Shown: piece after piece, positions 3,482 to 45,035 of the stretch | Layout of the letters: each line of letters opens with the position of its first letter | How positions within the stretch are numbered: the stretch's first letter is position 1 | Assembly: GCF_001598215.1 (NCBI RefSeq) | Contig: NZ_BCXJ01000003.1 | Coordinates: 310,001 to 374,000, forward strand | Direction: 5' to 3' | Source: Shouchella clausii | Lineage (GTDB): Bacteria > Bacillota > Bacilli > Bacillales > Bacillaceae_D | Length of the DNA: 64,000 bases | Notes under the pieces: model-generated | What the model was told of the DNA's origin: nothing | Database searches by the model: none | What the model saw: only the letters and a program-made list of their open reading frames with translations | Program-made: the position numbers and the translations under genes

Positions 3482-3764
3482 TAAAGTTACTCTAACATAA
3501 CTAATTGCTTTTTTGCAACAAAAATGTTAAAGCGGTTTCAACGCGTTCGCTGTTTAGCTCGTTTCTGTCATTCACCATTCACCTTATGTGTATTTCTTGA
3601 ACGGCAGCCTAAAAGGGAAACGACAGATTTGGAGCGATTTCCCTCTTCCCATTTGAAATGAACATGCTGTTTTTCCACCTGATATCACGCAATAAATCTG
3701 GCAATGATGCCCGCCGTTCCACCTTTTTTCACTGTCCATACACTAAAAAAAAAGGAGGGAAGCC

Positions 3765-4373
3765 ATGTATGTATATGTCGCAATTGGAGATTCGCTTGTA
3801 ACAGGGGTTGGCTCAACCAACGGATTTGTCGTACCTTATCGGAACATGGCAAGCCGCCGATTAGGACAGCCGATCCAACTAATTAAACTGGCTAGAAACG
3901 GGCTAACCTGTGAACAGATCTCCAGTTTGACTTTTAGGCATTCTAAAAAAATCGAACGTGCCAATATCATAACGATTACAGCTGGAGGGAACAATTTTTT
4001 AACCGCCTTACGGCAAACGAGTAGAACAGGCTCGGTCGATCATCTCCCTAAAATTGCAGCTGGCGTTTACGCCTGTTTACATCACCTTATCCGCCAGATC
4101 ACTTACGTAAAACAACATGATCGCAAACCATACATCGTCCGTGTGTTTACCCTTTACAATCCGCTATCAAAAATTCCAGTTATTCAGTCGCATCTCTTTC
4201 GTTTTAATCAGCGCTTATATACGTTGGAACGCTATCCACATGTGCGCATCGTTGACATTAGCTTTCTTTCAGACGGAGTTCATTATCTGGCAAAAGATGG
4301 GATCCATCCAAATAACCGTGGCTATGAGAGGATAGCTGAGGCTGTTTATCAGACAGGGTTCTATCCTTTGTAG
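3765..4373 (+). CDS. SGNH/GDSL-type lipase or esterase
   Basis: Small SGNH hydrolase (202 aa). Seen: block I AIGDSLVTGVG with the catalytic Ser near residue 10, block II Gly in ARNGLTCEQ, block III TAGGNNF (oxyanion Asn), and block V DGIHPNNRGY holding the Asp-His pair. No signal peptide is visible. AAAGGAGG precedes the ATG by about 6 nt. Length and architecture match the spore-germination lipase group (LipC/YcsK-like) of bacilli, but I cannot confirm orthology. It is a single gene transcribed convergently toward the GH3 gene, with hairpins at 4400-4426 and 4496-4520 between them. Confidence 0.85.
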   Translation: MYVYVAIGDSLVTGVGSTNGFVVPYRNMASRRLGQPIQLIKLARNGLTCEQISSLTFRHSKKIERANIITITAGGNNFLTALRQTSRTGSVDHLPKIAAGVYACLHHLIRQITYVKQHDRKPYIVRVFTLYNPLSKIPVIQSHLFRFNQRLYTLERYPHVRIVDISFLSDGVHYLAKDGIHPNNRGYERIAEAVYQTGFYPL

Positions 4374-4399
4374 AGAACCACTCTGTTTACATGAAAAAA

Positions 4400-4426
4400 G
4401 CCAGCTAACTAGAAAAGATAGCTGGC
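4400..4426 (-). terminator. Rho-independent terminator for the GH3 gene
   Basis: An 8-bp perfect stem (GCCAGCTA / TAGCTGGC) with an 11-nt loop. On the minus strand it is followed directly by TTTTTT. It lies 117 bp past the GH3 stop codon. Confidence 0.65.
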
Positions 4427-4495
4427 ATTGCAGATTTAAGCCGAAAAAGCCCATCCCATGCATAGGACAGGGGTTGTCTTCAGACAACAGATTCA

Positions 4496-4529
4496 CCGCC
4501 AGTGGACTCCCACTTGGCGGCTTTTATTT
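4496..4529 (+). terminator. Terminator-like hairpin downstream of the GDSL gene
   Basis: CCGCCAGTGG pairs with CCACTTGGCGG (one bulged T) and is followed on the plus strand by CTTTTATTT. It is about 120 bp beyond the GDSL hydrolase stop codon. A second small stem (GTTGTCT / AGACAAC, near 4473-4488) precedes it. Confidence 0.55.
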
Positions 4530-4542
4530 CGATCCTGCAGAC

Positions 4543-7029
4543 TTAAATTCTTTCTTTTATTTGTACGTTTGATTTTATCTTTACATTTGAAGAAAACACT
4601 TTTCGATCAATGATTAACTCTTCTCCCACTACATTAAAGGAGTCATTTAAACGGATGTCCTCCGATGAAGCACCAATATATACTTCCATTTTTCCAGGCT
4701 CCACTATTTGTTTCAAATCATTGTTATGAAAAGCCAACTGTCTCATATCAACGGTAAATGTAATTTCTTTTGATTCATGAATATTTAGGTTAACCTTGGC
4801 GAATCCTACAAGCTGTTTAGTAGGTCGTGCAATCCTACTAAAGCAGTCTCGTATGTAGAGTTGTACAACTTCGTCCCCCTGATAAGGACCCACATTTTTT
4901 ACGTTGAACGTAACTTGAAGCTGCCCGTCCGTCGCTACTTCTTTATTTAGTGACAGGTCGCTGTACTCAAAAAATGTATAACTTAATCCATGTCCCAAAG
5001 GATACAAAGGCCTATTTTTATCATGGTCAATGTACTCTGCCCACTCGTCAATCTCTATATAAAAAGGAGATCTGCTAGCGTACATTGGAATTTGTCCTTT
5101 ATCCTTAACGATTGTAACTGGCAGCTTGCCACTTGGATTGGTTTTGCCTGTTAACACATTAACAATAGCTTGCGCCCCCGCCTGCGCAGGCAACCAAGCG
5201 TACAGCACTGCCTTGCTTCTTTCGTTAATAGATGGGTTTGATAAAGGCCTTCCATCCACTATAACGGAAATGACTGGTTTATCAAGTTGAAAGACCTCTT
5301 CCATCATCTCTAACTGTGGTTTTTCAACATCGATATGAATGTTATCCTTGTTCTCTCCCGCCGTTGCGTCAGGGGCTCTCATACTTTCTCTTCCGCCAAG
5401 AATCGCGATAACCACGTCAGCTTGTTGCACCGCTTTCTTAACCTTGTCAATGCCGCCTTCAATAGGCCTATTGATTTCGCAGCCTTTTTCATAAATGATG
5501 TTCTCTTGCCCACATTCCTCTTCCAGTATCTCTTTAACCGTGCTGCAATTAGGATAAAAGAGCTGGCTAAATTCATCCATGTTTTTGTAAACCTTATTGG
5601 ATGTCGATCTTCTTTTCTTGAGCATTGCAATAATCATTTCCTTTTGTTCTGGAGAAGGACGCTCATCAAAAACAATTCCCTGTGATTTTAGCATACCTCG
5701 ATGTTCCGTAATGACGGTGTCATACGCCATTTTAATGAAATTGTCATCTTCAGAACGATCAAAGTCACTGGTTGTTGTATCTGCTGTTCCTACTGCCGAA
5801 TAGCCCCCAAAGAAATTCACACTATTATTAGCAGACGGCCCTATGACCGCTATTTTTAGACCTTTCTTTAATGGCAAAGTTGCCTCATCATTTTTGACAA
5901 GCACGATCGACTTCTCAGCAATTTCCTGTGATAGTGCTTGATATTCTTTCTTCTTAATCTCTTCGTGAAAGTCACCTGTTTTAAATGGGCGCTCAAACAA
6001 CCCTAAAGTGAATTTAGTCTCTAACACCCTGCGAACAGCTCGGTCAATATATTCTATGTCCAGTTCTCCTGACTCTACTGCTTCTTCAAGGTACTGATAA
6101 CAGATATGATTCGGTTGCTCTACATCCATTCCAGCTTGAAGCGCCATGACCGCCGTTTCTTTTCGGCTCTCTGCAACGCGGTAACGTGAATGAGCGTGAC
6201 TAACACTGCCATAATCTGCTACAACTAAACCTGAGAATCCAAGCTTATTTCGTAAAATGTCGGTTAATAACCATTTGGACGTAGACACCGCCTGCTCATT
6301 CAAGATTCCATAGCTATTCATTATTCCCATTACGTCTGCTTCATGGATAGCAGCCTCAAAAGGAAAACAGTACGTATCAAGCAGCTTTCTTTCTCCTATT
6401 TGCTGCTCTCCCCCGTTTCTGCCTCCTTCAGCATTTCCGTATCCAACAAAATGTTTGGCCGTGGCCATCATTTCTTTGTTTCCTTGTACCCCTTTGACAA
6501 ATGCTGTTCCCATTTGAGCAACGAGATAAGGATCTTCGCCGTACGTTTCGCCAATCCTTCCCCACCTCGGATCACGGCCCAAGTCAAAAAGAGGCGAATG
6601 AACCGTATTGATGCCAAAAGCGAGTAGTTGTTTCTTGACTACTTCTCCCATTTTTTTCGCTAATGCCGGCTCCCACGTGGATGCTACACTCATCGATTGA
6701 GGAAATGTGGTGGCGCCCGGTATTTGTGCGCCGGCTATGCCTTCATTATGAATAAGCACAGGGATTCCTAATCGTGTTTCATTGACAAAAAAAGATTGCA
6801 ATTTTTCTAATGTTTCCATATCCTTCTTATGATCTCCTGTTTGAGAACTGTTTAAGAAGCTTAGCGTGCCCACCCCATGCTGATAATTCTCGCTCACATG
6901 GTGGATCGGATCGCCTTGCCCGTGATTGACTAGGCCAAATAGTTGGGCTACCTTTTCCTTTAGTGTCATTCTTCCTAATAGATCTTCTACTCTTTCTGCT
7001 ACGCTTTTGCTTGGATCTTTGTAAAGCAT
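4543..7029 (-). CDS. Glycoside hydrolase family 3 beta-glycosidase
   Basis: Large cytoplasmic GH3 enzyme (828 aa, no signal peptide). Domain order is the GH3 N-terminal TIM-like barrel (about 1-330, with HNEGIAGAQIPGATTFPQ, KHFVGYGNAEGG and the nucleophile in GLVVADYG near D272), the GH3 C-terminal alpha/beta sandwich (about 390-660, IGPSANN ... AILGGRE), and a fibronectin-III-like domain (about 700-800, NVGPYQGDEVVQLYIRD). The family hydrolyses beta-glucosides or beta-xylosides with retention; substrate cannot be read from sequence. It is divergent from the AraC-type regulator gene, and the GPH symporter beyond is a likely importer of the same substrate. A weak cre-like stretch (AATGCGTTTTCA) sits near 7188. 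Confidence 0.92.
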   Translation of the reverse strand: MLYKDPSKSVAERVEDLLGRMTLKEKVAQLFGLVNHGQGDPIHHVSENYQHGVGTLSFLNSSQTGDHKKDMETLEKLQSFFVNETRLGIPVLIHNEGIAGAQIPGATTFPQSMSVASTWEPALAKKMGEVVKKQLLAFGINTVHSPLFDLGRDPRWGRIGETYGEDPYLVAQMGTAFVKGVQGNKEMMATAKHFVGYGNAEGGRNGGEQQIGERKLLDTYCFPFEAAIHEADVMGIMNSYGILNEQAVSTSKWLLTDILRNKLGFSGLVVADYGSVSHAHSRYRVAESRKETAVMALQAGMDVEQPNHICYQYLEEAVESGELDIEYIDRAVRRVLETKFTLGLFERPFKTGDFHEEIKKKEYQALSQEIAEKSIVLVKNDEATLPLKKGLKIAVIGPSANNSVNFFGGYSAVGTADTTTSDFDRSEDDNFIKMAYDTVITEHRGMLKSQGIVFDERPSPEQKEMIIAMLKKRRSTSNKVYKNMDEFSQLFYPNCSTVKEILEEECGQENIIYEKGCEINRPIEGGIDKVKKAVQQADVVIAILGGRESMRAPDATAGENKDNIHIDVEKPQLEMMEEVFQLDKPVISVIVDGRPLSNPSINERSKAVLYAWLPAQAGAQAIVNVLTGKTNPSGKLPVTIVKDKGQIPMYASRSPFYIEIDEWAEYIDHDKNRPLYPLGHGLSYTFFEYSDLSLNKEVATDGQLQVTFNVKNVGPYQGDEVVQLYIRDCFSRIARPTKQLVGFAKVNLNIHESKEITFTVDMRQLAFHNNDLKQIVEPGKMEVYIGASSEDIRLNDSFNVVGEELIIDRKVFSSNVKIKSNVQIKERI

Positions 7030-13722: not shown

Positions 13723-16383
13723 TTACTGTAATTGCTTAAACTCGTTTTCAATCTTTTTGAGGATGCCCTTTGGAAGCATCGTTTCCGGCGCATATGCAAT
13801 CAATTGGTTAAAACTCAGGTCTTTGGCTCGCTTAAGCATTGGGTTATTTATCAATTCAGGCAAATGCCTTTGAAACACTTCTCTTGTTGGAGGGGCCTCT
13901 AATAATTCCTCAATAGTCATGTCAAAACTATAGAACAACTGCTGCTTTTCCGGATTAAATTCTTTATAATCTGTTTCCCCTTTCCTGCAAGTAACCGTTA
14001 CATAAGCCTCTGTTAGCCCTTCTCCTGAAGCTGTAACTGTAAAGGAACCATCCACACCTGTACTCCTTACAATGGCAAGTGCCCTACCTTTGTACAGCTT
14101 TCTTTCATTGCCTGTAAATAACTCTGTCGATAAAGGATCAGCAGAACCTAAGGCGATTAGCTCTCCTTCCCCTTCCACATGAATTTTTACGTTATTGTCT
14201 GCATAGGGAACGACTCTCCCAGCTTTATCTATTGCTTAAATTGATAGATACGCCAAATCACCATAATTGGACTTCATTTGTGTTCGATCCGTTTCTAGCC
14301 GAAGACTAGTTGGAGTGTTTGTTGTTTCTAATCGATCTCTCCCAGCTTCTTTACCTTTTATGTACGCAACCACTTCTAACGTACCTGGCTCATAAACAAT
14401 CTCAAAAGAAGTTTTGTATTCTTTCCTCCAACCGGACTGTTTTTTCCCATAGGATCGCCCATTCACAAGTAACTCCACTTCTTCTGCACCTGAATAGACA
14501 TCCACTCTTGTCTTTTGATTCTCACATCCTAAAAAGGTATAGCTTCGTTCCACAGGCTCCCAGCCCCAAGGTTTAAAATGAATCTTTTCACCATATCGTT
14601 TTGGTGGCAGCACAGTGATATATGGTTGCTTCCTTACTTCCCACACAATATCTCGATAGTAAGATTGAGGGCGTTTCTCCCCACATACATCAATATCTCC
14701 CGCATGGGCGTAAAACCATGGAAACTCTCCTCCAGCTGCCATACTAGGACTCCCAACATTCACTCTCCCAAGCCCAGCTTCTCCTAAATAGTCTATGGCC
14801 GTCCATACAAAATCTCCAATAACGTTCGAATTGTTAATTGTTTCTTCCCAATTTTCGAATAAGTTTTGCGGATAAGTTTCTGATCCATATATAACCCGAT
14901 TTGGAAATCTTCCAGCGTCATATTTATACCGTTTCACTTTATAGTTATAACCTGCAGTATCTAATGGTTCGAAGTACTTTTCCGTGACTTCACCCCATAC
15001 ATCGTTGTCAGGATCGACGTTGTTTCCTAGCATATTCAAGATGACATTGCCATCCACTACGGTTGTCATACTTGCATACTCTGACATCAGTGAGCAAGCT
15101 GAAGCTGTAACCGCTCTGCTTGAGTCTAATTCTTTTATTTTGTCAGCCAAGCGTTTACTCCAAACATAACCATCAGAAGAGCCGTTCCTCTCTTCAACTT
15201 CATTTCCAATTGACCACATAATGATAGAAGGATGATTAAAATCACGCTTCACAAATGTCTCTAAATCTTCTTCCCAATACTTTTCAAAAAACAGATGATA
15301 ATCAAAACTTTTTCTGCCTGCAACCCATGCATCAAATGCTTCATTAATAACCAGCATTCCTAATCGATCGCAGGCATCTAATAAAGCCGGTGCATGAGGG
15401 TTATGTGCCAACCTTATTGCATTAAAACCAGACGCCTTTAATAGCTCTACTTTCCGTTCTTCAGACCGGTCGTAGCTGGCACTGTCTAAAGGCCCGTGAT
15501 CATGGTGAATACAACCACCTTTCAGCTTCAATTTTGCCCCATTTAATTTAAAGCCTTCCTGAGCATCAAAAGAGAGCTCACGAATGCCAGTAAAAGTTGA
15601 ATGACTCTCATCCTCCATTCCATTACGGATAATGCGAATCTTAATATAATATAAGTAGGGATTGTCAAGTTCCCAAGGTTGGAAGGGGGATAAAGCGAGA
15701 TTACTCGTTACTTGTTGCTCCGCCGTTTTTTCCAAGGTAATCTCTTGCTCATCCTTCCATACTACTTCTTGATCCGAAGACAAAACTTCAATCTTATAAA
15801 TCACCTTTTCACGGGACTCCAACTTATTTGTGATAACCGTCTGTACTTGGAGCTTGGCTACACTGTCTTTTATCGACTTTGTGACCGCTTGACAGTTCCA
15901 TGGTTTAATATGAATTTGCTCACCAACATGAAGCCAAACATGCCGGTATATTCCAGTGCCTGCATACCATCTAGAGCTAGGCTTCTGGCTATTCTCCACA
16001 TGGACAAGAAGGATATTTTTTTCTCCTATCGTAATGTGCTCTGTTATATCTACTAAAAAACTCGTATACCCATTCACGTGCTTAGCGACTACATCATTAT
16101 TCACATAAACGGTGGAAATTCCCATAACTCCTTCAAATTCCAGAACAAGCGTTTTATTCTCCCATTCTTTGTCTATAATTAGTTCTTTCTTATAATACAG
16201 ACTTGCCCCTTCTGTAAAACCTTCTTCATAACCAGAAGGATGGTCCTGCTTTCGTTTCTTTTCAACTGCAATGTCATGGGGTAAATGTATAGCCTTCCAG
16301 TCACGGCTCATTTGAATTAATATTGAATTTCCTAATGTACTCTCTAAATAATGCCAATCTTTATTGAGTAACCATTTTTCCAT
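13723..16383 (-). pseudogene. Glycoside hydrolase family 2 (beta-galactosidase type) interrupted by an in-frame TAA
   Basis: One continuous frame of 887 codons with a single internal TAA at 14236-14238; codons on both sides align with one GH2 protein. The first 715 codons hold the sugar-binding, immunoglobulin-like and TIM-barrel domains, with acid/base Glu in MWSIGNEVEERN (about E395) and nucleophile Glu in VIYGSETYP (about E502). After the stop the frame continues AIDKAGRVVPYADN ... VEGEGELIALGSADP, the usual C-terminal domain of this family. A one-base change of GAA or CAA would explain the stop. The truncated product keeps both catalytic residues and might be partly active. A strong cre-like site lies upstream. 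A sequencing error is possible. Confidence 0.85.
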
Positions 16384-16528
16384 ACTAGCCCCCCTTTTTA
16401 ATCAGCATTCATCACCATTCCTTTTATTAGAGACTTGCATCGGTCAAATACACTTGCCCATATATAAAAATAAAGAGACCCCTATTTTACACAAGTTAGC
16501 AAACTGTTCTCTAAGTCTTCCCTTTTTA

Positions 16529-16542
16529 AGATAACGCTTTCA
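16529..16542 (-). promoter_or_regulatory. cre-like site upstream of the GH2 gene
   Basis: On the minus strand it reads TGAAAGCGTTATCT, matching the cre consensus at 13 of 14 positions by eye. It lies about 150 bp upstream of the GH2 start. CcpA repression is inferred. Elsewhere in 16384-16729 I see AT-rich sequence but no gene. Confidence 0.6.
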
Positions 16543-16729
16543 AAATAATCATACACCTACCTGAACAGGTAAGTATGGTAATTTGTTTTTAATTTCTGTA
16601 CTATACTCCTTTCTTCGGATAAATTTTACAAGGGAGAGTCACTAAATTACTGAACCCTATTTTACAACTGGCGTTACAGACCAGATAAATGAACAAGTGA
16701 ACTGCATTTTATTTTCGTTTCCCGCTAAA

Positions 16730-17383
16730 TTACAAGGTAATATACCCTCGTTTAATCGCAACAGAAACCGCCTCAGATCTGGAATCAACATTTAATTTAT
16801 TGTAGATGTTCGTTAAATGCGCTTTTACTGTTCGTTCAGCAATTCCCATATCAAATGCAATTTCTTTATTACGATAACCTTTTGATACAGCTCTTATGAT
16901 AAATAATTCTTTATCGGTTAATATGCACTGCTTATCGTTAGCATTTGTACATTCTGGCTCGCTTTTTTGTTTCCCATTTAAAATTTTCATCATAATTTCT
17001 GGTTTTATTAATGTATCTCCTCTTAGTGCAGACTCGATGGTACGGAATAAATCATCCCTACCTGTATCTTTCAGTAAATAGCCTTTTGCCCCTGATTGGA
17101 TACCTTTGATCATTAATTCATCTTCGTTGTAAGTGGTAAGAATAATGACGGGGATATCGATTTGGTTTTGATTCAGATATTGAATCGTTTCTAGCCCGCT
17201 CATAACAGGCATATTTAAATCGAGGAGAATAACATCTACTTTATGATTCTCAAGAAACTCAATTGCTTCTTGGCCATTCCCTGCCTCACCAATTACTTTA
17301 TAAGATTCATTTGTTTCTAAAATGAGCTTAAGCCCTTCCCTTACAACCAAATGGTCATCCACAATCAAGATATTCCTTTTCAC
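16730..17383 (-). CDS. NarL/FixJ-family response regulator, partner of the kinase at 22889
   Basis: A 217-aa response regulator with an N-terminal receiver (acidic pair DD at 9-10, phosphoacceptor near D55 in VILLDLNMPV, conserved Thr and Lys in ILTTYNE and YLLKD) and a C-terminal LuxR-type HTH (TDKELFIIRAVSKGYRNKEIAF ... RTVKAHLTNIYNKLNV). This pairs with DesK/NarX-type kinases; the only such kinase nearby is at 22889-24094, on the far side of the P450 genes on the same strand. Control of the P450 genes by this pair is inferred. A terminator precedes it, so it probably has its own promoter in 17384-17540. Confidence 0.9.
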   Translation of the reverse strand: MKRNILIVDDHLVVREGLKLILETNESYKVIGEAGNGQEAIEFLENHKVDVILLDLNMPVMSGLETIQYLNQNQIDIPVIILTTYNEDELMIKGIQSGAKGYLLKDTGRDDLFRTIESALRGDTLIKPEIMMKILNGKQKSEPECTNANDKQCILTDKELFIIRAVSKGYRNKEIAFDMGIAERTVKAHLTNIYNKLNVDSRSEAVSVAIKRGYITL

Positions 17384-37692: not shown

Positions 37693-37721
37693 AAAACAGC
37701 ACCTCCATTAGGTGCTGTTTT
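37693..37721. terminator. Terminator closing the RiPP-like operon (and the epimerase gene)
   Basis: AAAACAGCACCT pairs with AGGTGCTGTTTT around a 5-nt loop, a 12-bp perfect stem with A and T tracts. It works on both strands and marks the 3' end of the nine-gene minus-strand operon. Confidence 0.8.
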
Positions 37722-37803: not shown

Positions 37804-38355
37804 CTATTTTACCCTTTCGGCTTCCTTGCCTAAATCGTATCTTCCTAGATCCACTGATTTGTCGTTGATTTTCCCATAGTAGTGGACATCGACAAAGCGG
37901 CCATTTTTAAAAACCGCCTCTTTACGGACACCTTCGCGTTCATAGTGGCCTTGTTCCATCATCACCAATACCCGTTCATTGGTGGCCAGCACTTCTGCTT
38001 CGATACGCCTTAATCCAATACTGTTAAAGCATATATGTTCTAGTTGGCGAAGAACTTCTGGCCCATAACCGTTTCCCCAAAAGGCAGGCTTAATCATAAT
38101 CCCTAATTTGCACGTACGGTTTACTCCATGGATATCGTGGATTTGTGCAATGCCAACTGCTTCTTCAGCCATAATCTTAAAATGCTTTTGTGATTTGTTC
38201 GTAATCCAAGACTCCAATTTTCCTCTAAGGAGTAATCGGCTTTGCGGGTAGTTGTATCCTAAAATAGCGGTTTGAAACACAGCTTCATCGTTGTACATTT
38301 CATCAACCAATTCAATGTCCTCTAGATTCAAAGGCTGAAGAGCCAATTTCATCAT
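37804..38355 (-). CDS. GNAT-family acetyltransferase (RimJ/RimL-like), last gene of the RiPP-like operon
   Basis: A 183-aa acetyltransferase with LGIMIKPAFWGNGYGPEVLRQL (acetyl-CoA loop GNGYG) and the following IGLRRIEAEVLATNERVLVMMEQGHYEREG, typical of the ribosomal-protein-acetylating RimJ/L group. It lies 12 bp after the MFS exporter gene and before the terminator, so it belongs to the operon. It may acetylate the product for resistance or tailoring, which is inference. Confidence 0.82.
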   Translation of the reverse strand: MMKLALQPLNLEDIELVDEMYNDEAVFQTAILGYNYPQSRLLLRGKLESWITNKSQKHFKIMAEEAVGIAQIHDIHGVNRTCKLGIMIKPAFWGNGYGPEVLRQLEHICFNSIGLRRIEAEVLATNERVLVMMEQGHYEREGVRKEAVFKNGRFVDVHYYGKINDKSVDLGRYDLGKEAERVK

Positions 38356-38367
38356 TCACCACTCCCT

Positions 38368-39591
38368 TTAGCTAATTCTTTCAAGCGTAGTGGTCGCTTC
38401 CTGATTAAATGGATGGAACCAGTAGCGCACGATCAACGCTAACGATAAAATACACAGCAGGGCGAATACGATGCGGATATGGATAAACTCTGCCGCTACA
38501 CCCCCGATTAAACCAGCAACAGGCAACGTCGACTTGCTTAGCATTAAAAACAGCCCATTGACACGGCCTATTAAATCGTCAGGGACTATTTGCATTCTTA
38601 ACGTTTTATTGACGACATTAAAAATAATGATCGGCACTGTATGGACCATCATCGCTAGGCCTAGCGTAACCCACCCTGTGCTAAGCGAGATAATACCAAT
38701 GCCGCCACTGCTGACCATTAAGCATACGAGCAACATCCGGTTCGTTCGTTTGAATGTTTTCGTAATCAATGGAATAAAAAACGTCAGAAGTACTTGCGAG
38801 ACGGCAGCAATTGTATATATGAGGCCCGTCTGAGAAGAATCCAAAGCCAATGTATCCCTCGCAAAAAAGACAAGTAAGGCGACAACGACAGCATTGGATA
38901 TGTTCACCAACATCATAATTAAAAGAAGCGGTTGAAGAACTTCGTGTTTTTTTACGTAGCTTGCTCCTTGGACTAGATGTTTCCAAGAGCTGCCACCGGC
39001 AATTTTTTTAATGTTTTCTTTTTTGATTCGGTAAAACAAGACAACCGCGCAAATGATAAAAAACGAAATAGCGTCAAGAAGCAACACGGTAAAACCACCG
39101 AACATGCTAATCAACATCCCTGCCAAAGCACTGCCAAAAAGCAGTGACGTGGAGTCAAGGAACTGAAATGACGAATTAACATTCACAATTTTATCTTTTG
39201 GAAACATCGACGGAATGATGCTGTTTAATACAACGCTAAACATCGCTCCTCCGCAAGCAATAAAAAATCCGCAAACAAAAATCCAGATAATCGGAATTTG
39301 GTTTGCTGCTGCGTTTCCAATCACAATCGTTAACAAAAAGAACCCTTGTAAGAAAGCAGAGAGAAACAGCAACAACTTATGGGAAAAGCGATCCGCCAAC
39401 AGCCCTGCCAATGGGGAAACGAACAAAAATGGAATCGTCTCTAAAAAGAACATGACGCCCATATAAAAAGAGGAGCCCGTTAATTCATAAATGATCCATG
39501 GCATAGCAATCAAATAGAGCTTATCGCCTATTTTCGAGACGAGCGACCCGAAAAAAAAGAGGATGAAATTACGGTCTGCTAATAGCTTCAA
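38368..39591 (-). CDS. MFS exporter (MFS_3/enterobactin-exporter-like)
   Basis: A 12-TM major facilitator of about 407 aa: FGSLVSKIGDKLYLIAMPWI in TM1, the motif-A loop GLLADRFSHKLLL, and a TM7-12 half starting LLIMMLVNISNAVVVALL. The MFS_3 group includes siderophore and macrolide exporters. The long frame begins at 39636, inside the upstream gene. AAGGA lies 9 nt before a TTG at 39591, 5 bp after the TsaA gene's stop, giving LKLLADRNFILFFFGS, so I prefer that start. It probably exports the operon's product. Confidence 0.85.
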   Translation of the reverse strand: MKLLADRNFILFFFGSLVSKIGDKLYLIAMPWIIYELTGSSFYMGVMFFLETIPFLFVSPLAGLLADRFSHKLLLFLSAFLQGFFLLTIVIGNAAANQIPIIWIFVCGFFIACGGAMFSVVLNSIIPSMFPKDKIVNVNSSFQFLDSTSLLFGSALAGMLISMFGGFTVLLLDAISFFIICAVVLFYRIKKENIKKIAGGSSWKHLVQGASYVKKHEVLQPLLLIMMLVNISNAVVVALLVFFARDTLALDSSQTGLIYTIAAVSQVLLTFFIPLITKTFKRTNRMLLVCLMVSSGGIGIISLSTGWVTLGLAMMVHTVPIIIFNVVNKTLRMQIVPDDLIGRVNGLFLMLSKSTLPVAGLIGGVAAEFIHIRIVFALLCILSLALIVRYWFHPFNQEATTTLERIS

Positions 39592-39596
39592 GTGCT

Positions 39597-40076
39597 TCAA
39601 TCCTTGTAGTAGTTTTTCATCAACTCGGTTATCCACCCCGGTTGCCTAACTTCGCCAATGGGGCCAAACTCGTTGACATAGGGCTTAATGTCAATCACAG
39701 GGGTACCATCGATCGCGTCTAACGCTTTTACGGTAAGCCTATTTCCGTTCATTTCCAACAACGCACATCTAGACACACCAATCGCGTTCGGCCTGCCTTT
39801 GGCTCTTTGCGCAAAAATGCCGACGCTTGGCCAGCCTGTATTATTGCGTGGATGGCGGTCTTGGTAGACAATTTTGCTTTGGTCAACTTGATCCATGTGG
39901 AAGACGATTTCCAAATGGGAAAAAGAATCTAGTCCTTTTAAAGCAGAAAGGGGAATATCCTCGTTCACAACAATTTCGCTAATGACCGATCCCCAATGGT
40001 CATCGGTCATTTCAGTTCGCGGCGAACGGACGTGGCCAATGTATTTTATCGTTGTCGTTTGCTGTTTGTCTGTCAT
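39597..40076 (-). CDS. TsaA/TrmO-domain (VirR-like) SAM-binding protein
   Basis: A 159-aa protein matching the TsaA beta-barrel family: IKYIGHVRSPR, LKGLDSFSHLEIVFHMDQ, HPRNNTGWPSVGIFAQR, KGRPNAIGVSRCALLE and LDAIDGTPVIDIKPYVNEF. TrmO of this family is an AdoMet-dependent N6-methyltransferase acting on t6A in tRNA. Here the stand-alone domain sits in a biosynthetic operon and may methylate the product instead, which is inference. ATG 40076 overlaps the upstream stop as ATGA. Confidence 0.85.
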   Translation of the reverse strand: MTDKQQTTTIKYIGHVRSPRTEMTDDHWGSVISEIVVNEDIPLSALKGLDSFSHLEIVFHMDQVDQSKIVYQDRHPRNNTGWPSVGIFAQRAKGRPNAIGVSRCALLEMNGNRLTVKALDAIDGTPVIDIKPYVNEFGPIGEVRQPGWITELMKNYYKD

Positions 40077-40426
40077 GTCCACACCTCGTCTCGAATCAGC
40101 AAATGGCCTTTTTCAATTTTTTGCACACAAATGAAAATCTCTTCTTCCTGACAGCCTTCACAACGGGCTATGACTTGCTTGATTTTCGGTAAAAGCGCTT
40201 TTAGCTTCTCGGATGAATGGCTTTGTTTGCAAACCATTTTGACAATTGGAGCAGGACAAGGGCTCGTCAGCCAATCTTGTTTATAGGCGTGCTCGATTTT
40301 GTTCCACAGTACCCAGCAATGGTCTGTTGGGATCGCCAACTCTTTTGTGACCGTATTGGCGATTTTGCCAAGAACCTCTTGATTCGCGGGACAGTCGAGC
40401 GGTGAATGAAGTGTAATCACTGGCAT
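40073..40426 (-). CDS. Tautomerase-superfamily-like protein
   Basis: A 117-aa protein starting MPVITLHSPL, with Pro next to the initiator Met as in the 4-oxalocrotonate tautomerase superfamily, where it is the catalytic base after Met removal. It continues with a helix-strand pattern (NQEVLGKIANTVTKEL), then Cys-rich CPAPIVKMVCKQ and IARCEGCQEEEIFICVQ, unusual for the family. The chemistry in the pathway is unknown. It lies 10 bp after the methyltransferase gene and is coupled to the TsaA gene by ATGA. The assignment rests mainly on the N-terminus. Confidence 0.6.
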   Translation of the reverse strand: MPVITLHSPLDCPANQEVLGKIANTVTKELAIPTDHCWVLWNKIEHAYKQDWLTSPCPAPIVKMVCKQSHSSEKLKALLPKIKQVIARCEGCQEEEIFICVQKIEKGHLLIRDEVWT

Positions 40427-40436
40427 CCCTTTCCCC

Positions 40437-41195
40437 TCATTTCGTAAGAAGGAACATCGCTGTCCTTACAGGAATGTAAAAATCATCTTCTCGTTTTTCA
40501 ATTCCCATTGTCTTTAAAAAATGGGCAGGCGCTTGCTCCAATTTAGCGCGGATTTCACGCTCTGCTTCCAAACCAGAAGAAGCGATTTCACACCACCGTT
40601 TGATGCTGATGCCTCCTGGCTTTTCGCTTAAATCGCTAAACCCTTCTACTACTGTTAGTCCTTCGTGTATAAAAAGGTCGAGCCATTGTTCATACGAATA
40701 GCTTTTAATATGCGTTTCGTCATGGAGGAGCTCCAATTCATGATTGAATTGGTCAACTTGTTTGTCTCCATACCCTTCCAAGTCAATAATCGCTATTGTT
40801 CCGCCTTTTTTTACTACTCGTTTCATTTCTTTTATCGCTAACGTGATATCGGTAAAATGGTGGGCTGCAAGCCGCGTTACGACAATGTCAAATTGCTCCG
40901 ATTCAAACGGCAAGTTCTCGGCATAGGCACAAACGGTTTTAACGCTTTTCCCTTTTGTAGCAGCAAGCTTTTCGACATTTGCCAGCATAGATTCAGAGGG
41001 GTCAACACTCGTCAATGAGCGGGGCGCAAGCGCCAACCCCAAATGGCCCGATCCACAGGCAACATCGCAAATCGCTTTGTCATGCACATCTCCTAACAGC
41101 GTCTTTAACTGGTCGATCGAGGGACTTGCTTTGTGAACCTCGCTATTTAAAAAATTGTCTGCGATTTGGTTAAACCGTTGGGCACTTTTATTCAT
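40437..41195 (-). CDS. Class I SAM-dependent methyltransferase (UbiE-like)
   Basis: A 252-aa methyltransferase with motif I in AICDVACGSGHLGLAL (AdoMet Gly-rich loop), acidic motif II in LTSVDPSESM, motif III around AYAENLPFESEQFDIVVTRLAAHHF and the later IAIIDLEGYG strand. The Methyltransf_11/UbiE pattern suits N-, O- or C-methylation of small molecules or peptides. It overlaps the upstream hydrolase stop by 8 bp. In this operon it probably tailors the ribosomal peptide or its product. Confidence 0.87.
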   Translation of the reverse strand: MNKSAQRFNQIADNFLNSEVHKASPSIDQLKTLLGDVHDKAICDVACGSGHLGLALAPRSLTSVDPSESMLANVEKLAATKGKSVKTVCAYAENLPFESEQFDIVVTRLAAHHFTDITLAIKEMKRVVKKGGTIAIIDLEGYGDKQVDQFNHELELLHDETHIKSYSYEQWLDLFIHEGLTVVEGFSDLSEKPGGISIKRWCEIASSGLEAEREIRAKLEQAPAHFLKTMGIEKREDDFYIPVRTAMFLLTK

Positions 41196-41868
41196 GAATC
41201 GATTTTCCTCCTCCTACTAGGCGAACAAGATGGACAATTGGCCCTTCCGCCTCACTGTTCATTGGATTGAGCGAGTGTCCCAATCCTTTTAAAATCGATG
41301 TTTCGACTGGCGCTGTGCTGTTTATACAGCTTCTGACAGTTTGGCTGTACTTCGCAGGGGCGATCAGATCATCGAGGCTTATATTCTCACCAAACGCAAT
41401 ATAATCCTCGCTTCCATATACAAGACTGATCGCTTCAACTTGTTCGGCAACAGTAACCGCCTCATCGACATATAAGCCAATTAACACAGCTGACGAAGGG
41501 CTTGTAACGCTTTGCAGCTTCTCTAAAACGAGATTTGCTCCTAATGACATCCCTATAAACGTAATGCCATACGCAGGGTGTGCTGCTTTTATCCGTTGGT
41601 AAACCGCACTTAAACGCGACGCCCGATAGCCATACTCTTCGTCTGATATGCTTTCTCTGCGGTTGACTCGATCTGGAAAATCAAACCGGCAGACACCAAT
41701 TTTTTCATCGACCAAGCTTGCTTCCAATTGATCATATAGTTGCCGCTCGCCTTCAGCGCCGTCTTCATCGAATTTTCCCATTTGCCCCGATTGGACAATC
41801 AAAACGATTTTTTTAGAACCAAAAGGGATGTTTTCGTGCAACCGATATCTGGATGGATTCATTTCCAT
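41188..41868 (-). CDS. Alpha/beta-hydrolase-fold protein
   Basis: A 226-aa cytoplasmic hydrolase with the nucleophile elbow ITFIGMSLGANLVLE (Ser of GMSLG), an oxyanion-region strand KKIVLIVQSGQMG, an acidic residue in LVYGSEDYIAF and a His in LKGLGHSLNPM. It looks like a small serine esterase or peptidase (dienelactone-hydrolase-like). In the operon it could cleave the leader or release a modified fragment; this is inference. It is 11 bp after the HemN-like gene. Confidence 0.75.
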   Translation of the reverse strand: MEMNPSRYRLHENIPFGSKKIVLIVQSGQMGKFDEDGAEGERQLYDQLEASLVDEKIGVCRFDFPDRVNRRESISDEEYGYRASRLSAVYQRIKAAHPAYGITFIGMSLGANLVLEKLQSVTSPSSAVLIGLYVDEAVTVAEQVEAISLVYGSEDYIAFGENISLDDLIAPAKYSQTVRSCINSTAPVETSILKGLGHSLNPMNSEAEGPIVHLVRLVGGGKSIHE

Positions 41869-41879
41869 GCGATATCGCC

Positions 41880-43316
41880 TTACTTATGGCAAATTTCCGA
41901 AGAAAATTGTCCGATTTGCCCGTGGAAATAGACAGAGATAATTTCTTCATGCAGCGCTTCCCCTTCAAGGGTAGGCAACAAGCGGTCGTCATCAAGTTTC
42001 ATTAATAAATTACTTTCGAGCAATGATCGAATGACTCCTGCATAAGGTTCGTCATTGATCAAGTCGACATGAAACTCTTTTTGGTAACGGCTCAACTGAA
42101 TTGGTTGGTTTGACTTGTAATTAAACCCTAATGAAGTGGAAATCGCTTCATTACCCGTTAGCATTCTGCCAAAAGAAGACGGCGATTCATCGTTTTCCAT
42201 CCGTTCCACGTAGCGATTAATATCGCTAACATTATGGGTTTGTAAAATAGTGCCTTCCTTGTCATTTAACCAGCCATACACCCCTGGTCCATAGGCAATC
42301 ATGGAGTCATAGCGCTCCCATTTATTTTTCGAAATTTGTGGAATATTGCCTTCAGGGTAAGTGTTTTTTCGGCTCCACCATCCGCAAGGGCTAGGCTCAT
42401 AGCCATACTTGAGGAACACCTTCAAAATCTCCTCGCGCATTTGGTATGTTTGCTCCAACGTCGGAAATAGCCCCTCGGCTTCCATTTTTTCCCGCACACG
42501 GTCATTATTCCATAATGACACATTGCCAATCCCCATCTTTTGCCTATCGGCATTGCGCAAACGGTAAATTGTAATCGTCGGCACACCCATATCGCAGAGC
42601 ACTTCGATGTCACGGGCAACACTGTTCGCAGTTTGGTGAGGCAACCCAAAAATAATATCGACATTGAACGGTTTGTTAGACAAAAGCAACTTGTTAATCG
42701 CATCAATCGACATTTTTCTGTCATGTTTGCGGCCGACCGCTTTAATCACCTCGTCTTCCAACGATTGCACACCCATGCTAAAGCGGTTAAATCCCATTTC
42801 CAGCGCCTGTTCAATTTCATCGCCCTGGTAATTGTCCGGATTTCCCTCGAGTGATATTTCACAGTCATCAGCGATCGTGTAGTGTTCCCTAATGTGTTTA
42901 ACGATCTTTGCCAATTGGTGCGGTTTCATCAGTGAAGCAGTCCCGCCGCCTAAGTAAATCGATTCGATCTTTGCTTTCGTCACCCAAGGCGCTTGTGCGA
43001 TCGTGCTGGCTGACTCTTTAATTAAAAGGGTTACCCACCTATCGAGCACTTCTTCTTCTTTTCCATTTTGAGGCAAGTACTTTTTCACGTAATTACAAAA
43101 ATAACAGATGTAGGAACATAAAGGCACATGAAAATACAATGTTGCTGGCTTGTTTGCGCCATCAAAGTGGTTATACAAATCAGCTAAAGCAGCTCCTTCT
43201 ACTGTTTCCCCGAAATTGGCAGTTACATTAATGTTATAATTATTGTGAGAAATTTGCAATTCAGGATGCCTCTTAAGCAATTCGCCTACATTCAATTCCG
43301 TTTGATTCAGAGCCAT
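41880..43316 (-). CDS. HemN-like radical SAM enzyme
   Basis: A 478-aa radical SAM protein of the HemN/HemW superfamily. The [4Fe-4S] motif is in LYFHVPLCSYICYFCNY (Cys 67, 71, 74). HemN-like YLGGGTASLM, ISLEGNPDNYQGDEIE, FNRFSMGVQSLE and VDIIFGLPHQ follow, then a C-terminal winged domain (LTGNEAISTSLGF). HemN-like proteins include C-methyltransferases and radical cyclases in RiPP pathways (e.g. NosN, TbtI), and heme chaperones. It has no HemW-specific role here by context. It is 11 bp after the SPASM gene. Confidence 0.88.
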   Translation of the reverse strand: MALNQTELNVGELLKRHPELQISHNNYNINVTANFGETVEGAALADLYNHFDGANKPATLYFHVPLCSYICYFCNYVKKYLPQNGKEEEVLDRWVTLLIKESASTIAQAPWVTKAKIESIYLGGGTASLMKPHQLAKIVKHIREHYTIADDCEISLEGNPDNYQGDEIEQALEMGFNRFSMGVQSLEDEVIKAVGRKHDRKMSIDAINKLLLSNKPFNVDIIFGLPHQTANSVARDIEVLCDMGVPTITIYRLRNADRQKMGIGNVSLWNNDRVREKMEAEGLFPTLEQTYQMREEILKVFLKYGYEPSPCGWWSRKNTYPEGNIPQISKNKWERYDSMIAYGPGVYGWLNDKEGTILQTHNVSDINRYVERMENDESPSSFGRMLTGNEAISTSLGFNYKSNQPIQLSRYQKEFHVDLINDEPYAGVIRSLLESNLLMKLDDDRLLPTLEGEALHEEIISVYFHGQIGQFSSEICHK

Positions 43317-43327
43317 CTGTACTCCCC

Positions 43328-44620
43328 CTATTGGTCAATTTGCAATTGCAATTTGTAACCTGCTCGCTTCCTCTCTTCCCAGTAACGGTTTGCCTCGAGC
43401 ATAAAGCGCTGCAAATATTCGGTTGCGCCACAACCAAGCTTATCGCCAGAAACATTCTTAGCCAATGGCGGGCAACGGAACTGGCACCAAATGCCTTCTT
43501 GGTAAACAGCACAGCTTTGGCACCCTGTAAATTCATCAAATGTAATGCTTCGAAATTCGTCAAAGCCGTGTTCCCATATGTCTTTAAAAGAGTGGTCTCG
43601 TAAATTGCCTGCTTTGTAATCGTCGTTGCTCATGCAATTGCTGCAAGGATAGACATCTCCAGCACTGTTGATGTAAGCAATCGTCCGTCCACATTTCTCT
43701 TGGTTCGTTTCTCGTTCAACTTTTTGGCAAAACTTAACCGTTTCTAAACTAAACATCCGCGTCGCTTCAGCTGGTTCACTGGCAGGTGGTTTCTCGAATT
43801 CGGGCTTGCTGAAACGGTCCATGCATTTCTTATAGATAGCAATCGATTTATCGACTAGTTCCGGTGGCAATAAGATGTCGGGATGCATAAGCGCTCGGCC
43901 AATTGGATGGGTTTCGAGCCATTGGGGGCGCGGATAGCCGTTTTGGGCACACCATTCAAAAATTTCCTCAGCGTCATCTAAGTTATAGCGATGGACAGAA
44001 ATGGCCGTCCTGAACGCGTGGCCATACTTTTTCATCCATTCGAACTTTTGTCTCAGTTTTGGGAAATCCATTCCCCCGCGAATCGTCCGTTCCGGGTCAG
44101 CGGTATCAAAGCTAATGAAAAAAGACGTGTTTGGCGCCAGCGCCGCCAGCTTTTCTTCTGTAATGAGAAGGCCATTGGTAAAAACTTGTGTATAAAAAGG
44201 TTTTGTTCTCGCGTAGTTGATAATTTCCACCGCATCTCGATGGGCGAAAATTTCTCCCCCGCTTAAAAACAGTTGGAGAATGCCAGCGTCTGCAAGTTGG
44301 TCAATCGTCTCTTTGATTAACTCGGTTGACATCTCATTTGGCCTTTTGTACGCCGAGTTAGCGTAACAATGCTTGCAGCGCAAGTTGCATAAATTTGTTG
44401 TTTCAATAAACGCAATCGCAGGCGCGCTTAAATGAAATTTATTTAAATCCACTAACGGGTCAGGGATTATGTAGCGATTTAAAGCTGTGAGGTCAATGCG
44501 CTCCCCTTTATTAAACCGGTCGAATTCTGCCTTGGCCGCCTCTTCAAAAAAATGAACTTTCCCGGTCGGCAACAGCCCGACAATCCCCCCGTCGTTTACT
44601 TGATACGGAATCATTACCAT
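43328..44620 (-). CDS. SPASM-domain radical SAM peptide maturase
   Basis: A 430-aa radical SAM protein. An N-terminal 70-residue region (PYQVNDGGIVGLLPTGKVHF) precedes the core motif TTNLCNLRCKHC (Cys 78, 82, 85). The catalytic barrel includes LFLSGGEIFAH and the TNG and SFDTADPE segments. The C-terminal SPASM domain has many Cys (VKFCQKVERETNQEKCGR, DVYPCSNCMS, GCQSCAVYQEG, IWCQFRCPP, KLGC) for two auxiliary [4Fe-4S] clusters. This architecture is typical of enzymes that modify ribosomal peptides. It starts at ATG 44620 (GGTGGTGG, 5 nt) and is separated from the peptide gene by a structured 240-bp leader. Confidence 0.92.
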   Translation of the reverse strand: MVMIPYQVNDGGIVGLLPTGKVHFFEEAAKAEFDRFNKGERIDLTALNRYIIPDPLVDLNKFHLSAPAIAFIETTNLCNLRCKHCYANSAYKRPNEMSTELIKETIDQLADAGILQLFLSGGEIFAHRDAVEIINYARTKPFYTQVFTNGLLITEEKLAALAPNTSFFISFDTADPERTIRGGMDFPKLRQKFEWMKKYGHAFRTAISVHRYNLDDAEEIFEWCAQNGYPRPQWLETHPIGRALMHPDILLPPELVDKSIAIYKKCMDRFSKPEFEKPPASEPAEATRMFSLETVKFCQKVERETNQEKCGRTIAYINSAGDVYPCSNCMSNDDYKAGNLRDHSFKDIWEHGFDEFRSITFDEFTGCQSCAVYQEGIWCQFRCPPLAKNVSGDKLGCGATEYLQRFMLEANRYWEERKRAGYKLQLQIDQ

Positions 44621-44645
44621 TCAAACCACCACCCACTATGTTAAT

Positions 44646-44845
44646 GGGAGATGCTGTTGCATCTCCCCTCAAACTGTAGCCAAACGCTCGCATCCTTCGT
44701 TGTTCGTCTCGTTCATTTGCTCATGAACCCCCGTTCTATTCGCATCTTCACTCGACTTCACGCCTCGGCTGACAAGCGTTTTCTATCAGTTGAGTGATTT
44801 TGTCGACGTTGTCGACAACCTCCAGGAGATGCTGTTGCATCTCCC
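44646..44845. repeat. Two copies of a 21-nt self-complementary element between peptide and radical SAM genes
   Basis: The copies are 44647-44667 and 44825-44845, identical over 21 nt and 178 bp apart. Each folds as a stem (GGAGATGC / GCATCTCC) with a 4-nt TGTT or AACA loop. No T-run follows either. Between them lie a perfect GTTGTCGACAAC palindrome (44808-44819) and a candidate 35-codon frame. They may stabilise or process the mRNA between precursor and enzyme genes. Confidence 0.7.
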
Positions 44846-44855
44846 GAAGGCCCAT
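44748..44855 (-). CDS. Possible 35-aa peptide following the precursor gene
   Basis: An ORF (MGLREMQQHLLEVVDNVDKI...) starts 4 nt after the precursor stop codon and encodes an amphipathic, acidic helix-like peptide with one Cys. There is no ribosome binding site beyond translational coupling. The first repeat element lies within its 5' part. It may be a second precursor or only chance coding in a structured leader. Confidence 0.25.
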   Translation of the reverse strand: MGLREMQQHLLEVVDNVDKITQLIENACQPRREVE

Positions 44856-44859
44856 TTCA

Positions 44860-44991
44860 TTAATTGAGTTCCATGTCTTCTAATTTGACGCTTCCTGTAC
44901 CTGCTCCTACCACAGCTAGTGTGATACCGTCTTTTGGTTGCTCTTGGTCCAAGCGGATTCGTTTTAAGTTGCTAGATGATTTCTTTTTCAT
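44860..44991 (-). CDS. Candidate ribosomal precursor peptide (43 aa) of the radical SAM operon
   Basis: A short peptide of 43 residues. The N-terminal 21 residues are basic and polar (KKKSSSNLKRIRLDQEQPK), a leader-like segment. The rest begins DGITLAVVGAGTGSV and ends KLEDMELN; it has no Cys and no aromatic residue. AGGAGG lies 7 nt before ATG 44991; an upstream ATG (44997) is too close to the ribosome binding site. The Gly/Val/Thr-rich centre is a candidate core for radical SAM chemistry. It lies upstream of the SPASM gene behind a Fur-family-like box. No similar precursor comes to mind. Confidence 0.7.
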   Translation of the reverse strand: MKKKSSSNLKRIRLDQEQPKDGITLAVVGAGTGSVKLEDMELN

Positions 44992-45016
44992 CGCCATCCC
45001 TCCTCCCTCGCGGTTT

Positions 45017-45035
45017 AAACATAATGATTATGTTT
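45017..45035. promoter_or_regulatory. Fur-family-like box upstream of the precursor gene
   Basis: A perfect 9-1-9 inverted repeat, AAACATAAT-G-ATTATGTTT. The inner six bases per side and the single central base fit the 7-1-7 pattern of Fur, PerR and Zur boxes: five of seven half-site positions match Fur and PerR, and seven of nine match the extended Zur half-site (consensus from memory). It lies about 25 bp upstream of the start codon. Metal or peroxide control of the operon is inferred. No clear -35/-10 pair was seen in 45036-45164. Confidence 0.5.

Follow-up and report, generated by a model that had tools for sequence, protein, structure and literature searches.

Radical S-adenosylmethionine (SAM) enzymes that mature ribosomally synthesized and posttranslationally modified peptides (RiPPs), such as SkfB, CteB, SuiB, and PqqE, combine a radical SAM core with a SPASM domain and are encoded directly downstream of a small precursor gene; the cross-links for which SPASM maturases are best known involve Cys and aromatic residues. 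We describe the same arrangement in a nine-gene operon of Shouchella clausii, lying within a 64,000-nucleotide (nt) stretch (assembly GCF_001598215.1, contig NZ_BCXJ01000003.1, positions 310,001 to 374,000; hereafter, the window, in whose coordinates positions are given), and these four proteins are the nearest solved relatives of its SPASM enzyme. The operon differs from them in its substrate: the Bacillaceae precursors contain no Cys, Trp, Tyr, Phe, or His, and the bonds made by SkfB, CteB, SuiB, and PqqE need residues that are missing here. Likewise, sactipeptides and ranthipeptides carry core Cys residues for their thioether bonds, and the cyclophane, streptide, and darobactin types have an aromatic core residue, whereas the Bacillaceae precursors offer neither, which rules out thioether, cyclophane, and Lys-Trp bonds in this family. 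We regard the locus as probably encoding an undescribed class of RiPP-type biosynthetic pathway, because the peptide and the SPASM enzyme co-occur, the peptide core is under selection, and the structural kin of the SPASM enzyme are RiPP maturases. The enzyme set and the substrate are unfamiliar, while the RiPP-type logic is known. The first-pass annotation of this DNA knew of no described pathway with these genes, and none was found in open-licence PubMed Central (PMC) papers, with subscription papers lying outside this scope and the supplements of mining surveys possibly listing the SPASM family. The genes, all located where that annotation had placed them, and the element that closes the operon are as follows.

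44860 to 44997, minus strand: predicted precursor peptide, 45 amino acids (aa), or 43 aa if the start is at 44991
43328 to 44620, minus strand: SPASM radical SAM enzyme (Radical_SAM and SPASM domains), putative peptide maturase
41880 to 43316, minus strand: HemN-like radical SAM enzyme (Radical_SAM), putative class C methylase; best profile ChuW/HutW, solved relatives HemN and NocN
41188 to 41868, minus strand: alpha/beta serine hydrolase with conserved Ser108, Asp155, and His198, putative releasing enzyme
40437 to 41195, minus strand: class I SAM-dependent methyltransferase (Methyltransf_11)
40073 to 40426, minus strand: tautomerase-like protein, with weak family matches
39597 to 40082, minus strand: TrmO N-domain (TsaA/UPF0066) protein (TrmO_N), with the TrmO C-domain unmatched
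38368 to 39636, minus strand: MFS transporter (MFS_1), putative exporter
37804 to 38355, minus strand: GNAT acetyltransferase (Acetyltransf_3)
37693 to 37721, minus strand: intrinsic terminator-like hairpin closing the operon, 12 pairs followed by a T run

The nine open reading frames (ORFs; 37804 to 44997) form a single minus-strand operon of the families named in the first-pass annotation, with a weak match for the tautomerase and no Pfam match for the window hydrolase. A 239-bp interval separates the peptide gene from the SPASM gene, after which the spacings are 11, 11, -8, 10, -10, -40, and 12 bp, agreeing with the three overlaps and the largest gap of 12 bp that had been reported. The terminator that had been proposed is also in place: its hairpin folds with -19.6 kcal/mol, a value matched by 0 of 200 shuffles, and it is absent from the list of the consensus terminator scan. 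The gene order is conserved above chance, with all nine genes kept in order in a second genus and six enzymes kept in order in another phylum.

Searches of 398 relatives (the window genome included) recovered the SPASM enzyme in five genomes, three from the window's genus (among 12 genomes listed) and two from another genus of the Bacillaceae, the family that also includes Shouchella; four genomes of this second genus were searched in all. The peptide, sought independently in the same relatives, is present in these five genomes and in no others, and the nine-gene order including the peptide is kept in all four other genomes of the two genera (loci L009 to L012, the last two being from the second genus). 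A scan of genome contigs with two short motifs, by which relatives without both are missed, gave 91 matches, of which the 80 listed represent 79 loci. Neighborhoods were read for three of these (L020 to L022), and the other 76 loci have 24 to 45% identity in the listed segment. Two are not independent cases: that of Shouchella tritolerans (L020) is 99.4 to 100% identical to the window in each protein, and that of S. rhizosphaerae (L021) has the same sequence as L009. The sole clear distant relative among the loci read is in Taibaiella soli of the Bacteroidota (L022), where six enzymes, from the SPASM to the TrmO-like protein, follow a short ORF in unchanged order (identities: SPASM, 46%; HemN-like, 51%; hydrolase, 25% over 102 residues; methyltransferase, 29%; tautomerase-like, 29%). 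The MFS and GNAT genes were not found in this 21-kb locus. A profile of the HemN-like enzyme recovered only the window genome among 398 genomes of its phylum and only Taibaiella among 295 Taibaiella relatives and 345 genomes of that phylum. Thus, the cassette is rare and sporadic and extends across two phyla, through age or transfer. The Taibaiella TrmO-like gene is matched in two reading frames (L022, positions 14363 to 14748), by a frameshift or a sequencing error.

The precursor gene has two candidate starts, of which the second ATG (44991) seems by eye to be better spaced from the Shine-Dalgarno stretch and corresponds to the start of the gene in the other genus; a 43-aa peptide is therefore probable. 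In its 45-aa form it is identical in three Shouchella loci, which differ by 4, 2, and 2 synonymous codons. Between the two genera the core PKDGITLAVVGAGTGSVKL is identical even though 10 of its 19 codons differ, with 10 synonymous and 0 nonsynonymous changes; over a longer stretch of 29 codons (LKRIRL...VKL) there are 13 silent and 2 nonsilent changes, and the variable parts of the peptide are its start and its last residues. Judged from these codon comparisons, the core is kept by selection on its amino acids. Silent-only changes of this kind fit a fixed-core precursor and speak against a mere RNA leader. With Cys and aromatic residues missing from the Bacillaceae precursors and one core kept unchanged in both genera, aliphatic or polar side chains are indicated as the targets of the radical chemistry; the compactness of the operon and its occurrence in a culturable genus of the Bacillaceae make this question directly testable. 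We rejected a 35-aa ORF between the peptide and SPASM genes (44748 to 44855) as a candidate second precursor: although the near-identical L020 has it intact, in L010 its match is divided between two frames, and no match was recovered at an E value of 0.01 in L009, L011, or L012.

The SPASM enzyme is related by sequence to the solved structures of SkfB, PqqE, and a sactipeptide-type enzyme (Protein Data Bank [PDB] code 5wgg), and the nearest folds of its structural model are SkfB, 5why, PqqE, and SuiB, followed by the anaerobic sulfatase-maturating enzymes; 5wgg and 5why are structures of CteB. The CX3CX2C motif is invariant both in this enzyme and in the HemN-like one. Its N-terminal ~50 aa are modeled as three strands and two helices, with predicted local distance difference test (pLDDT) values of 81 to 88 in the first five 10-residue blocks, a pattern that we assume to resemble the PqqD-type recognition elements. 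The weak solved relatives of the enzyme include YydG, which raises the possibility of an epipeptide-like system, in which the SPASM enzyme would epimerize Val or Ile, as described in PMC8326336, and the product would be a membrane-active peptide. The Val/Ile-rich core without Cys or aromatics would suit such a system. Nevertheless, the YydG match is weak (E values of 7e-4 to 8e-4) and confined to residues 73 to 137, epimerization leaves the further enzymes unexplained, and a hydrophobic secretion-type leader was not seen by eye in the precursor; we therefore find it highly improbable.

The HemN-like enzyme, whose motif Cys residues (C67, C71, and C74) are invariant in five aligned sequences, matches the solved structures of HemN (E = 2.5e-29) and of NocN, a radical SAM methylase (E = 1.3e-17). 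Its best NCBIfam profile is ChuW/HutW (185.6 bits) and that of the SPASM enzyme is NirJ2, a heme d1 enzyme (96.6 bits). Both profiles would accord with a tetrapyrrole pathway, in which ChuW/HutW-like and NirJ/AhbD-like enzymes modify or open heme, with the small ORF being a regulatory leader with an attenuator hairpin. Some features of the DNA around the peptide gene bear on this explanation.

44818 to 44851, minus strand: stable hairpin directly 3' of the peptide stop, ahead of the first enzyme gene (from folding and shuffles)
44646 to 44667, minus strand: second hairpin copy, a 21-nt exact repeat 178 bp away
45017 to 45035, unstranded: perfect 9-1-9 palindrome AAACATAATGATTATGTTT, candidate operator, just upstream of the ribosome-binding site of the peptide gene

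The hairpin behind the ORF would suit an attenuator, and the center of the palindrome, ATAATNATTAT, is common to Fur-type boxes. A 71-nt stretch spanning the window hairpin folds with -34.5 kcal/mol (0 of 200 shuffles as good). With the one in L011, seen by eye, six loci have a hairpin behind the peptide gene (the window, L009 to L012, and L022); per 200 shuffles, 10 were as good in L009, where the hairpin alone is not striking, 0 in L010, 1 in L012, and 2 in L022. One stem pair is A-U in the window and G-C in L010. Against an attenuator, however, the hairpins of the window, L009, L010, and L012 have no T run behind them, although that of Taibaiella has one. Moreover, the HutW and NirJ2 scores fall far short of the respective cutoffs of 400 and 500 bits, the amino acids of the ORF are conserved while its bases change, and the solved-structure neighbors of the SPASM enzyme are mostly peptide modifying. 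Tetrapyrrole chemistry thus appears very unlikely to us, and we return to the reading of the operon as a RiPP-type pathway.

For the HemN-like enzyme, the class C methylases (NosN/NocN and C10P, as well as ChuW/HutW) are the closest described proteins, sharing the CX3CX2C motif, a HemN-type sequence, and the NocN and HemN structure matches. The class I methyltransferase is encoded two genes on, recalling the partnership of C10Q with C10P, a pair that makes a cyclopropane by one-carbon addition (PMC6050322). In PMC9692996, class C methylases are described as transferring a carbon from SAM to sp2 carbons; in the precursor, by contrast, carbonyl and guanidine groups hold the only side chain sp2 carbons unless an earlier step creates another. 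An order in which the SPASM enzyme acts first, creating an unsaturated or otherwise activated site, would be the simplest. A further system for comparison is the tvg cyclopropylglycine RiPP of Halomonas anticariensis (PMC9062424), whose precursor is Gly rich, carries a TVGG repeat, and is acted on at Val by a radical SAM maturase. That system differs in that it is described with five genes, TvgB forms its cyclopropane without one-carbon addition, and the TVGG repeat is not present in the peptide sequences compared here.

Gene content and order, co-occurrence, core conservation, the families, and their conserved active-site residues are established, and from these we infer all of the chemistry of the pathway as follows. 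The peptide gene would supply an excess of the ~43-aa precursor, with the hairpin behind it probably limiting read-through or protecting the message, so that precursor outweighs enzymes. The SPASM enzyme, perhaps aided by its RRE (RiPP recognition element)-like N terminus, would act first on the C-terminal core DGITLAVVGAGTGSVKL. With Cys, aromatic residues, and His all missing from this core, the enzyme would have to target an aliphatic or polar side chain (Val, Ile, Leu, Thr, Ser, or Lys), and the outcome could be desaturation, a C-C or C-O bond, or epimerization. The HemN-like enzyme would come next, adding a SAM-derived one-carbon unit in the manner of class C methylases on sp2 carbons, and the class I methyltransferase would complete this by methylation or by closing a ring as the C10P/C10Q cyclopropanase pair does. 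Release and finishing of the product may fall to the hydrolase, the tautomerase-like protein, and the TrmO-like protein, while the MFS protein may export it and the GNAT protein may modify or protect it; the last two genes were seen in the Bacillaceae copies only. In its most specific form, we propose tentatively, as one possible outcome, that activation of aliphatic residues in the invariant GITLAVVGAGTGSVKL core, followed by one-carbon transfer by the HemN-like enzyme and the methyltransferase, yields a cyclopropanated or C-methylated peptide that is finished by the tautomerase- and TrmO-like proteins and constitutes a new RiPP class. We found no precedent for such a RiPP in open-licence PMC papers.

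The remaining enzymes bear on whether the product is a peptide at all. The Ser/Asp/His set of the hydrolase is conserved in 6/6 aligned sequences, and its structure model matches serine esterases. The tautomerase-like protein reaches 17.4 bits with the Pfam Tautomerase model, under the cutoff of 22 bits, and keeps its N-terminal Pro in 5/5 sequences. Small molecules are the usual substrates of tautomerases and esterase-like hydrolases, and the fold matches of the hydrolase agree with this. Hence, the peptide might instead be the scaffold of a small molecule, as in the pyrroloquinoline quinone (PQQ) and mycofactocin pathways, with a few of its residues being linked and then cut out by the hydrolase, and with finishing by the tautomerase-like, TrmO-like, and methyltransferase proteins giving a cofactor- or signal-like product. 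The three highest-scoring profiles of the SPASM enzyme are NirJ2, the mycofactocin maturase (95.9 bits; far under the cutoff of 265), and PqqE (94.4 bits; far under the cutoff of 381), PqqE is also among the solved relatives of this enzyme, and a core invariant across genera is what a fixed product would have. However, PQQ and mycofactocin use Tyr, which the Bacillaceae core lacks, the sporadic distribution (5 of 398 relatives) is unlike that of a housekeeping cofactor, and the MFS and GNAT partners do not favor this alternative. We consider it unlikely, and a RiPP-type product remains our preferred interpretation.

As to the TrmO-like protein, it shares with the TrmO (TsaA) tRNA methylase the TrmO_N domain (93.3 bits), with its DGTP..DIKPY stretch aligned to solved UPF0066/TrmO proteins. 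It differs in its length of 161 aa, in that at an E value of 0.01 nothing beyond TrmO_N was matched, the C-domain included, and in being encoded inside the operon in every Bacillaceae copy. Canonical TrmO has the C-domain, and a 147-residue archaeal TrmO relative indicates that short forms exist. The MFS protein has the enterobactin exporter EntS as its second-ranking NCBIfam model (94.3 bits; cutoff, 324), a match that gives one weak hint toward metals.

Several observations count against a RiPP-type pathway as set out here. The model of the SPASM enzyme has a mean pLDDT of only 68, and its fold matches have TM-scores near 0.5. Its sequence scores far below the curated cutoff of each of the 25 listed of 82 NCBIfam families, and the HemN-like enzyme is under the cutoffs of all 24 of its families. 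The N terminus is perhaps RRE-like, judged from the secondary structure of that model, and the Pfam RRE (PqqD) family gave no match to the enzyme at E values up to 10. The TrmO-like protein narrowly passes TIGR00104, the NCBI TrmO model (93.9 versus 93.25 bits), and by sequence it may therefore have a tRNA role. None of the nine proteins matched peptidase families at an E value of 0.01. The Taibaiella locus adds to this. Its SPASM enzyme is without at least three Cys residues of the region that holds C310, C326, and C383 in the window, and its short ORF, while agreeing with the other two precursor types in having no Cys, holds two Phe and two His; these differences count against one fixed chemistry. 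The 65-aa ORF has its best local match to the peptide in the Lys/Ser-rich start, and the similarity is weak (14 of 2,000 shuffles as high locally and 37 of 2,000 in the other mode). A tblastn search of the locus with the window peptide gave no hit at an E value of 0.01. A VKLE motif common to both peptides was noted by eye, and the support for this ORF as a precursor comes mainly from its position and the hairpin behind it. Thus, the RiPP-like character that the first-pass annotation had assigned is borne out in the Bacillaceae, with the peptide in all five operon genomes, a selected core, and a SPASM enzyme akin to RiPP maturases, and is only partly matched in Taibaiella. The same holds for the association of operon and peptide, as none of the 398 relatives has the operon without the peptide, while the Taibaiella ORF is weakly alike.

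The first-pass annotation also called the operon metal responsive and noted an upstream palindrome, which it likened to those of the Fur family. The palindrome itself is confirmed as a perfect 9-1-9 repeat, and its 13-bp core CATAATNATTATG has 1 exact match in the 4.66-Mb genome and 20 at one mismatch, against 12 matches in all for the reversed pattern used as a control. It is kept in all four Shouchella loci aligned (one of which, L020, is nearly identical to the window), with only the central base varying, and the Shouchella leader around it is well conserved throughout. The likeness to Fur boxes did not hold up. Canonical Fur-type boxes (TGATAATNATTATCA) are enriched in the genome (5 exact; 63 at two or fewer mismatches versus 12 for the control), and none stands upstream of the operon, where the palindrome has four mismatches over 14 positions to the Fur consensus string and as many to those of PerR and Zur. 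Nor could the palindrome be found ahead of the operon in L011/L012, the loci of the second genus. Regulation by Fur, and with it the metal-responsive label, is accordingly unsupported.

A ~160-bp insert lies between the two identical 21-nt hairpins (44668 to 44817) in the window, L010, and L020, while L009 is without it; the second hairpin copy was seen in the window and L010. A 25-nt probe from this insert matched only 8 of 156 loci, all of them copies of the operon locus, and occurs once in the window.

Among mobile elements, the peptide had no match in plasmids at an E value of 1, the SPASM enzyme had none in phages, and viral contigs yielded 10 weak SPASM relatives (23 to 37% identity). 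A SPASM relative on a Mesorhizobium plasmid (30% identity; one of three Mesorhizobium records read) and a HemN-like relative on a Rhizobium plasmid (one of 97 plasmid records read) were set aside, as both have different neighbors. In the Mesorhizobium loti plasmid locus L018 (accession no. CP050294.1), the SPASM relative is accompanied by a B12-binding radical SAM protein, an aminotransferase, a transketolase, and a member of the tyrosinase family; this is a different cluster, on a symbiont plasmid. On the 124-kb contig L012, the operon is flanked by reverse transcriptase (RVT_1) genes at 3613 to 5424 (two ORFs) and 15880 to 16941. In the second genus, a divergent HTH-plus-TPR gene lies upstream of the operon (L011, 12502 to 13785, plus strand; L012, 5628 to 6908, minus strand), with an ORF of 44 aa, whose start resembles a signal peptide, situated between the two. 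The pair is reminiscent of RRNPP quorum-sensing systems and is not beside the Shouchella operon; its two genes suggest peptide-based sensing in the second genus.

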